Shown: positions 19,848-35,317 of the stretch, one piece after another
Numbering within the stretch: the first letter of the stretch is position 1
Layout: each line of letters starts with the position of its first letter
Source: Darksidea phi
Taxonomy: Eukaryota > Ascomycota > Dothideomycetes > Pleosporales > Lentitheciaceae
Direction of reading: 5' to 3'
DNA length: 64,000 bases
Assembly (NCBI GenBank): GCA_030770425.1
Contig: JASJFT010000106.1
Span: forward strand, 89,364-153,363
Program-made: the position numbers and the translations under genes
The notes under the pieces: model-generated
Database searches by the model: none
Seen by the model: only the letters and a program-made list of their open reading frames with translations
Told to the model about the DNA's origin: nothing

Positions 19848-20160
19848 ATGACCACAAAGAAACTGGAGTCGAATTCTTCAGGCGTTAAGAAAATTGTCGT
19901 CTCGAACGAAGAAGTGCGCCAGGAGGCTTCCTTTGGCGGCGGATGCGGCGCTTCCTGCACAGCAAAAGGCAACCGAGCTGAAAAATGCAGCAACCGGCGC
20001 CGGCGACGCAGACGCACGCCAAAAGGCGACAGAGCAAGCAATTGACGAGCAAATCGAAGCTGAATCCTTTTAAAAAAAACCGCACAGTATGTCCGCTCCG
20101 GCACGTTTCAAGGCCTCGCAATGGGAACCGGCCTACTCTATAACACTTACGCGTTGCGTG
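19848..20160 (+). pseudogene. Frame-broken remnant of a small basic/acidic protein gene
   Basis: Three coding-like segments follow each other in different frames. MTTKKLESNSSGVKKIVVSN starts at 19848. After a shift, a segment including LPAQQKATELKNA and QAIDEQIEAESF follows, ending at a TAA inside TTTTAAAAAAAA. After a second shift, TAQYVRSGTFQGLAMGTG follows. Indels near the A-run and earlier could explain this. The last segment runs into the 179-bp repeat starting at 20134, so the 3' end may have been cut by that repeat. Family not recognised. Confidence 0.4.
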
Positions 20161-20565
20161 TGTGTGGGAGCTGAGAATGGCCTTTGCCGCCGGCTCGCTT
20201 ATTTAACCAATCAGGCGCAACTTCACGTGTATATCCATTTTCCCGCTTTTCTGTGTGCGTAGGTTGTGTGATGGGCTGGCACCTGAGGTGCTCAAGCATA
20301 GCTAGGTGCTTCGGCCACCCGCCCTGCTAGGGGCTATCCAACTGCGCCGCGCGCCTTACAAAAGGATACGTTTTGATCTGATCTCTAAATCCCACAGATC
20401 AACTAGCTATATAGGGGAGGCCCCGCCCAGCAGGCTCTCTGCGCGCCGGCTTAGCCGCCTAGCGCCAGGCCTGGAAGCTGATGCCAAGGGCTAGGCAAAG
20501 CCTAGCCCATAACAGGTTGGAGGATTTACCTATTTTTTTTTGTTGCTCTAGGTTGTAGAAGCGCT
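20134..20565. repeat. 179-bp direct repeat, left copy, split by a small insertion
   Basis: TACTCTATAACACTTACGCG at the left and GTTGTAGAAGCGCT at the right delimit a unit that recurs intact at 20811-20989. This copy is interrupted by the insertion at 20266-20513 plus one copy of its 5-bp duplication. Once these are removed, both copies are 179 bases and nearly identical. The unit contains a CCAAT word (AACCAATCAGG) and CACGTG, but I see no coding potential. Confidence 0.85.
20266..20513. mobile_element. 248-bp insertion with 5-bp target duplication
   Basis: The insertion is flanked by AGGTT at 20261-20265 and 20514-20518, and the undisrupted sister repeat at 20811 shows the empty site with one AGGTT. 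The ends are imperfectly inverted: GTGTGATGGGCTGG against GTTATGGGCTAGG. The interior is non-coding. It is a young-looking non-autonomous DNA element, dated as later than the 179-bp duplication. Confidence 0.75.
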
Positions 20566-20812
20566 TAGAGATAAAAAAGCAAAAAAAAGTAATGATCGTG
20601 CCAGGGGTCGAACCTGGAATCTCTTGATTACTGTAGAATCGTAGTCTACGAGGAGATTAGAAATGTTATAGGAATAAAGTACACCTATAGACTTACCAAG
20701 CGCCTTGCCATTGGGCCACACGACCGATTTTTATTGATGGAAATACTTCAATAATTATAATATATAACCTACCAGAAATTGCTTGATCCAGATTAGCGAT
20801 CATGTGGGGTTA
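20562..20812. repeat. 251-bp tRNA-bearing inverted repeat, left copy
   Basis: Reverse complemented, this segment matches 35067-35317 over 251 bases with eight substitutions and no gaps. It contains the tRNA-Arg gene, 87 bases of 5' flank and 31 bases of 3' flank including the T-run. Its borders coincide within a few bases with the junctions to the two 179-bp direct repeats. Confidence 0.93.
20593..20725 (-). tRNA. tRNA-Arg (anticodon ACG) with two introns
   Basis: Read on the minus strand, the acceptor stem GGTCGTG pairs with CACGATC, box A is TGGCCCAATGG and box B is GGTTCGACCCC; an eight-T terminator follows. The anticodon arm CTTGA-CTACGAA-TCAAG is interrupted twice. One interruption is a 10-nt intron one base after the anticodon (20638-20629), the canonical tRNA intron position. 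The other is a 51-nt insertion (20696-20646) between the fourth and fifth bases of the 5' anticodon stem. That insertion starts GTAAGT, contains TCTAATC and ends TAG. Removing both leaves a 72-nt cloverleaf with perfect stems. Whether the 51-nt piece is removed by the spliceosome, by the tRNA endonuclease, or not at all is unknown. Confidence 0.85.
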
Positions 20813-20989
20813 CTCTATAACACTTACGCGTTGCGTGTGTGTGGGAGCTGAGAATGGCCTTTGCCGCCGGCTCGCTTATTCAACCAATCAGGCGCAACTT
20901 CACGTGTATATCCATTTTCCCGCTTTTCTGTGTGCGTAGGTTGGAGGATTTACCTATTTTTTTTTGTTGCTCTAGGTTGTAGAAGCGCT
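20811..20989. repeat. 179-bp direct repeat, right copy, uninterrupted
   Basis: Same unit as 20134-20565 but intact, so it defines the empty site of the 248-bp insertion. The two copies flank the tRNA segment directly. Confidence 0.88.
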
Positions 20990-35066: not shown

Positions 35067-35317
35067 TAACCCCACATAATCGCTAATCTAGATCAAGCAA
35101 TTTCTGGTAGGTTATATATTATAATTATTGAAATACTTCTATCAATAAAAATCGGTCGTGTGGCCCAATGGCAAGGCGCTTGGTAAGTCTATAGGTATAC
35201 TTTATTCCTATAACATTTCTAATCTCCTTGTAGACTACGATTCTATAGTAATCAAGAGATTCCAGGTTCGACCCCTGGCACGATCATTACTTTTTTTTGC
35301 TTTTTTATCTCTAAGCG
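35067..35317. repeat. 251-bp tRNA-bearing inverted repeat, right copy
   Basis: Reverse-complement partner of 20562-20812. Differences: five in the 5' flank, two in the 51-nt insertion, one in the 10-nt intron and none in the mature tRNA or 3' flank. All are transitions, mostly toward T/A in this copy. The 179-bp unit seen around the left copy is absent here. Confidence 0.93.
35154..35286 (+). tRNA. tRNA-Arg (anticodon ACG) with two introns, second copy
   Basis: It has the same mature sequence as the left copy, base for base. The 51-nt insertion is 35183-35233 (GTAAGT start, TCTAATC, TTGTAG end) and the 10-nt intron is 35241-35250. Box A, box B and an eight-T terminator are intact. The 3' end of the 51-nt insertion (TGTAG here, CGTAG in the left copy) can pair with the anticodon sequence CTACG. 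That intron-anticodon pairing is a habit of true tRNA introns. Confidence 0.85.

Follow-up and report, generated by a model that had tools for sequence, protein, structure and literature searches.

Spliceosomal-type introns in nuclear tRNA genes of the fungus Darksidea phi

At least 15 independent inserts interrupt at least 14 tRNA loci in the draft assembly of Darksidea phi (477 contigs, 51.35 Mb), in genes for Arg, Gln, Ala, initiator Met, Lys, Ile, Val, Glu and Leu, and by their sequence these inserts are spliceosomal introns in tRNA genes. We consider it very probable that they are introns of the U2 type, gained many times by nuclear tRNA genes, and that they would be spliced as such. The fungus would appear to need its mRNA-splicing machinery for making some of its tRNAs.

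Results

The window analysed here, a stretch of 64,000 nt, contains on its minus strand a tRNA-Arg(ACG) gene (copy A, 20593..20725) that is interrupted twice and so encoded in three pieces, with G1 at 20725 and the discriminator A at 20593. A 51-nt intron of the spliceosomal type (20646..20696, minus strand), with the sequence GTAAGT...TCTAATC...CGTAG, separates positions 30 and 31 within the anticodon stem (CTTG/A), and a canonical 10-nt tRNA intron (20629..20638, minus strand) follows position 37. By script, the 51 nt can be excised in two equivalent registers, GT-AG and GG-TA. With both introns taken out, ARAGORN draws a tRNA-Arg(ACG) in which the acceptor, anticodon and T stems are complete; it miscalls both Arg copies of the window unless the canonical intron is removed as well, and neither ARAGORN run without introns nor Rfam at gathering scores reported a tRNA anywhere in the window. 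The first-pass annotation had described a tRNA-Arg gene with an insert in the anticodon stem that starts GTAAGT and ends TAG, a canonical 10-nt intron after the anticodon and an arm restored by removing both pieces, and these points are borne out by the sequence, the script and the ARAGORN fold. For the branch-site-like TCTAATC (20655..20661, minus strand) it had given a distance of 13 bases before the end, whereas nine bases follow the motif and the A presumed to form the branch stands 11 nt from the end of the intron. Also read from the sequence of the minus strand are a TATA-like element that starts 39 nt upstream of the exon string (20761..20766) and, downstream, a T8 run (20581..20588) that is likely the Pol III terminator.

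Two pairs of direct repeats lie around copy A (20134-20266 and 20811-20943, 133 nt at 99%; 20514-20565 and 20938-20989, 52 nt at 100%) and form a local repeat landscape, perhaps left by mobile elements. Of the protein genes in the window, a P450 is closest to Zopfia rhizophila (Dothideomycetes), at 86%, and an amine oxidase is closest to Lophiotrema nucula, at 78%; Lophiotrema also belongs to the Dothideomycetes.

A second tRNA-Arg(ACG) gene (copy B, 35154..35286, plus strand) is found ~14.4 kb away in inverted orientation. Sequence comparison shows its exons to be identical to those of copy A, its 51-nt intron (35183..35233, plus strand) to differ by two transitions and its canonical 10-nt intron (35241..35250, plus strand) by one. 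Over the whole duplicated stretch the copies are separated by eight transitions, the remaining five of which are in the 5' flank, amounting to no change in 72 exon bases against eight in ~180 other bases; this pattern hints at constraint, in numbers too small to serve as proof of selection.

The first-pass annotation had named several intact ordinary tRNA-Arg(ACG) genes elsewhere, together with the lack of a spliced product, as the mark of a dead copy, and the 51-nt sequence in transposons as the mark of a simple insertion; what the searches returned was of neither kind. With 63 of 1735 candidates scored across the 51.35-Mb draft, the Rfam tRNA model matched at least 59 places, some of them on two contigs crowded with mitochondrial-type tRNAs, and no intact insert-free Arg-ACG gene was among the nuclear matches read. 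Patterns for Arg-ACG with up to three mismatches hit four places with the T-arm and six with the D-arm, again with no intact insert-free gene among them, and no near copy of the 51 nt occurred outside the two Arg genes. Besides the window copies, the patterns led to C124:230670, C423, C124:101303, C239 and two unrelated places. The gene at C124:230670 is Arg-like, has an insert of its own elsewhere (in the variable region) and is damaged in the acceptor and D stem; C423 is a decayed Arg-like copy with its 5' half deleted, and C124:101303 and C239 are decayed Arg-like copies too. At both C124:230670 and C423 the uninterrupted site CTTGACTACG is visible, so that the 51 nt in the window copies can be recognized as an insertion. 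Because CGT and CGC together account for 66 of the 204 Arg codons counted in five ORFs of the window, the cell presumably needs tRNA-Arg(ACG), and since both window copies are interrupted and no intact intron-free gene was found, decoding of these codons would depend on removal of the 51-nt intron.

Inserts in other tRNA genes were gathered from Rfam and pattern matches (in one search with 44 matches, 33 were read), with their borders first placed by eye from tRNA structure and position numbers likewise assigned by eye. Single inserts interrupt Gln-TTG (C149, 53/54), two Ala-AGC genes (C79, 52/53; C132, 58/59), initiator Met (C312, 54/55), Lys-TTT (C436, 28/29), Ile-AAT (C177, 25/26), Val-CAC (C78, in the D-loop), Leu-TAG (C190, 9/10), two Glu-CTC genes (C335 and C440, 52/53 in both) and Leu-AAG (C34, a GC-AG insert in the D-loop at 15/16). 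The Leu-CAA gene on C85 has one insert in its variable arm and another that splits the anticodon (34/35), in addition to a 28-nt canonical intron. Between the first insert site, at 9/10, and the last, in the T-loop, there are others in the D-loop, the anticodon arm and the variable region; all 15 inserts are away from 37/38, the canonical site at which the 10-nt piece of the Arg gene is found. Arg copy B is left out of the set of 15 as a duplicate, and the Arg-like gene on C124 with its variable-region insert is kept despite a damaged 5' half. A Lys-CTT copy on C77, with no 3' end of the insert and a damaged T-arm, and the tRNA-like places C252:31.6k, C29 and C346 are outside the count. Some 38 further nuclear tRNA genes among those read are free of such inserts. 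A pattern for the T-arm site (G/GTTC) recovered three known genes and one place on C417, a mitochondrial-type contig; its reversed control gave no matches. A query with twelve approximate fungal tRNA sequences matched nothing and carries no weight. Among the matches read there were no genes for Phe, Trp, Pro, elongator Met, Arg-TCT, Val-AAC or Ser-CGA, and for Gly-GCC there was only a doubtful copy.

Several further tRNA-like sequences came to light. The Lys-CTT copy (C77:11883, L107) has GTAAGT...CTAAC in its T-arm, no 3' splice site and no T-loop, and looks like a decayed intron-bearing gene. A tRNA-like sequence at C252:31573-31700 (L120) has a T-arm and the 3' half of the acceptor, with a 5' half that is possibly interrupted several times. 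There is also a repeated tRNA-like family, GGAGGGATGGTCGAGTGGTG...GGTTCGATTCCTACTCCCTC, with members on C187 (L058), C158 (L066), C425 (L061), C152 (L135) and C239 (L074), of which L061 and L066 end in CCACCA.

The 15 inserts are 47-57 nt long, and in the register that restores the gene 14 of them have GT-AG borders and one has GC-AG, with GCAAGT at its 5' end. Registers were determined for 13 inserts by a script, which located each of its gene strings in the genomic DNA, and for the two in Leu-CAA from the sequence and ARAGORN. Each of those 13 independent inserts allows one to four equivalent excisions, one of which is always GT-AG or GC-AG; assuming uniform bases and independence, the product of chances of finding such borders in an allowed register is ~1.5e-23. 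The 5' splice-site consensus G[TC]RNG[TC] is present in 13 of 15, the other two having weak 5' sites (GTACGA and GTTAGA), and YTRAY occurs 6-12 nt before the insert end in every case (at 9-12 nt in 14). When insert interiors were shuffled 2000 times, a mean of 0.55 of 15 had the 5' consensus and never more than 4, against 13 observed; for the branch motif the mean was 3.6 and the maximum 9, against 15 observed. Of 22 canonical tRNA introns that ARAGORN places in this genome, one has GT/GC-AG borders, and two do if the placement is allowed to slide by 3. Chance likeness to introns was rejected on the shuffles and on this canonical-intron control. A G precedes 10 of the 15 inserts. In Gln, Ala C79 and Ile, restoring the tRNA requires skipping an AG nearer the branch. 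The two Glu introns (C335 and C440) share an identical site and are not among the six most alike pairs listed; they could be either old or independent gains.

Introns of protein genes offer a point of comparison. A predicted ABC transporter gene in the window (Pfam ABC_membrane and ABC_tran) has five introns of 54-67 nt with motifs like those of the tRNA inserts, and as far as compared (n=5, one predicted gene) the two look alike. There were 52 putative ORF-joining intron candidates, 13 of them 45-54 nt long, and a count of motif pairs over 203 kb showed at 52-55 nt a weak excess, 42 against 25 expected, that carries no weight, the set being small and including tRNA loci. The spliceosomal-looking reading first given to the Arg gene is supported and, with 15 independent inserts, extends to many more tRNA genes.

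ARAGORN gave no call or a wrong one for Gln, Ile, Val, Leu-TAG, both Glu genes, Leu-AAG and Leu-CAA before in-silico excision and the right isotype afterwards, in the case of Leu-CAA with both inserts out. Lys, initiator Met C312 and Ala C132 were called correctly whether spliced or unspliced, Ala C79 was called correctly unspliced and wrongly spliced (its canonical intron still in place), and Arg C124 gave no call in either form. The interrupted copies of initiator Met, Ala, Glu, Leu-AAG and Ile could be dispensable, since the genome also has insert-free genes for each of these. Exons compared with an insert-free paralogue show 0/72 differences for initiator Met and 0/72 for Ala C132; both exon parts of Ala C79 are identical to the paralogue, as are the two halves tested of both Glu genes. 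Leu-AAG was left out of this comparison, its register being lost in the canonical intron. Inspection by eye shows a mismatch in the T stem of Ile C177, a U-U in the anticodon stem of Leu-CAA and, in Val-CAC, a single mismatch at the top of that stem.

In their flanks and inserts, the interrupted genes look like RNA polymerase III genes. A TATA-like word is found upstream in 13 of 14 gene copies (11 at 39-57 nt, the other two at 32 and 19), and TTTT starts no more than 15 nt downstream, also in 13 of 14. No T run longer than three occurs in any of the 16 insert sequences (the 15 and Arg copy B), as a Pol III precursor would need. The T-arm inserts fall in, or adjoin, the internal B box. Within the initiator-Met intron on C312 (L110) there is a B-box-like TGTTCGATTCC; it might stand in for the B box split by this intron.

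Discussion

The precision of the inserts, their splice-site and branch motifs, the tRNAs restored on excision, the insert-free paralogues and the lack of near copies of the 13 inserts queried are all features of the DNA itself, and they are most simply read as meaning that the spliceosome would remove the inserts from Pol III precursors. We infer a course of events in which the tRNA precursor, insert included, would be transcribed by Pol III, the spliceosome would remove the GT/GC-AG intron via the lariat pathway, and, in genes that also have an ordinary intron after position 37, the tRNA splicing endonuclease would remove that one, the end product being a normal tRNA. One possible origin of the introns is reverse splicing, a route proposed for the intron in fission-yeast U6. 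We also think it likely that this lineage has come to use the spliceosome as an essential tRNA processor following repeated intron invasion, with some of its tRNAs requiring the endonuclease in addition and at least tRNA-Arg(ACG) being dependent on the spliceosome.

The inserts might instead be intron-like sequences that are not removed in vivo, leaving the interrupted copies inactive and the tRNAs to be supplied by intact genes that were not seen. The insert-free paralogues of initiator Met, Ala, Glu, Leu-AAG and Ile fit such a situation, as do the damaged copies on C124, C77 and C423, and the survey scored 63 of 1735 Rfam candidates in a draft of 477 contigs. However, several interrupted genes have kept their exons unaltered, whereas other tRNA-like sequences have decayed; dead copies would have no reason for keeping GT-AG borders, a branch site and restorable stems; and neither Rfam with this coverage nor the patterns with up to three mismatches recovered an intact insert-free Arg-ACG gene; we regard inactivity as an unlikely explanation. 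Most of the substrates known for the spliceosome are transcribed by Pol II, and the introns could be spliced from longer Pol II transcripts that run across the tRNA genes, with functional tRNA derived from these or not made at all. The TATA-like words and downstream T runs, each present in 13 of 14 copies, fit Pol III genes with short transcripts, and the intron borders are fitted to tRNA structure, all of which makes a Pol II source improbable.

It is quite improbable, too, that the inserts are copies of a mobile element, whether introner or transposon, that resemble introns by accident. Introner-like elements are known in Dothideomycetes (PMC4457414, in part), and one pair of inserts, Ala C132 and Ile C177, reaches a z of ~5, the highest of 105 pairs. 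Against this, a joint query with 13 inserts (all except the two of Leu-CAA), which detects near copies only, returned 14 places, namely the 13 themselves and Arg copy B; transposon or introner copies were rejected on the lack of any other near-identical copy. The inserts also fold no better than shuffled sequences (z -1.7 to 1.5), have no target duplication beyond the 1-4 equivalent registers and, even if they were introners, would be spliced introns, as introners themselves are. The first-pass annotation had raised a further alternative, pointing to pairing of CGTAG with the anticodon CTACG: the inserts might be ectopic introns of the tRNA type, removed by the tRNA splicing endonuclease. In Cyanidioschyzon merolae such cutting occurs at bulge-helix-bulge motifs. 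The insert positions do resemble C. merolae cases (PMC3978253, in part), and Ala C79 alone has a possible 4-bp central helix, without outer helices. That pairing, however, forms a neighbouring hairpin with no bulge-helix-bulge motif, and 0 of 15 inserts pass a relaxed test for the motif (our own rule, with no positive control). Endonuclease cleavage would leave the GT/GC-AG borders and branch motifs unexplained, canonical introns of this genome being without such borders in all but 1 of 22 cases, and we give it almost no credence.

No report of spliceosomal introns in tRNA genes was found in the open-access literature, bioRxiv preprints and most subscription papers being outside its scope, and none by term in PMC11782384, PMC4090602, PMC13149111, PMC3978253 and PMC9860276. 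If spliceosomal removal is the true course, the spliceosome acts on short, probably uncapped Pol III precursors of ~120-210 nt, and tRNA-Leu(CAA) would have to lose two spliceosomal introns, one of them splitting the anticodon, as well as a canonical intron. In such genomes tRNA gene finders would miss or misname needed genes, and intron gains with insert-free paralogues would provide material for studying intron origin.

By the usual teaching, nuclear tRNA introns form a class apart, with protein enzymes of their own and a fixed site. Introns of this canonical kind also occur in the Arg gene, from which the inserts differ in site, length, borders and the enzyme expected to remove them. Spliceosomal introns are present in the nuclear rDNA of ascomycetes, and a 1993 paper reportedly described an mRNA intron in fungal 18S rDNA; these are likewise spliceosomal introns in a structural RNA, but in Pol I rRNA rather than in tRNA. 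Introns of nuclear tRNA genes are described as lying exclusively at 37/38, with C. merolae and Guillardia as exceptions (PMC3978253, in part). The nuclear genes of C. merolae and the nucleomorph genes of Guillardia theta are, like those here, interrupted away from that site, but their introns are of the bulge-helix-bulge type or undefined (same source, in part), whereas the inserts here have GT/GC-AG borders and branch motifs, with no such motif found. Introner-like elements represent a similar case of repeated intron gain in the same fungal class (PMC4457414, in part), although the queried inserts, unlike these elements, are without near copies and have tRNA genes as hosts. As a precedent, the fission-yeast gene for U6 snRNA comes nearest; it contains an mRNA-type intron thought to have arisen by reverse splicing and is likewise a case of a spliceosomal intron in a Pol III non-coding RNA (PMC10484740, in part). 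U6, however, is one snRNA and a part of the spliceosome, whereas here the introns are found in tRNAs for nine amino acids, at many positions, and in some genes alongside a canonical intron.
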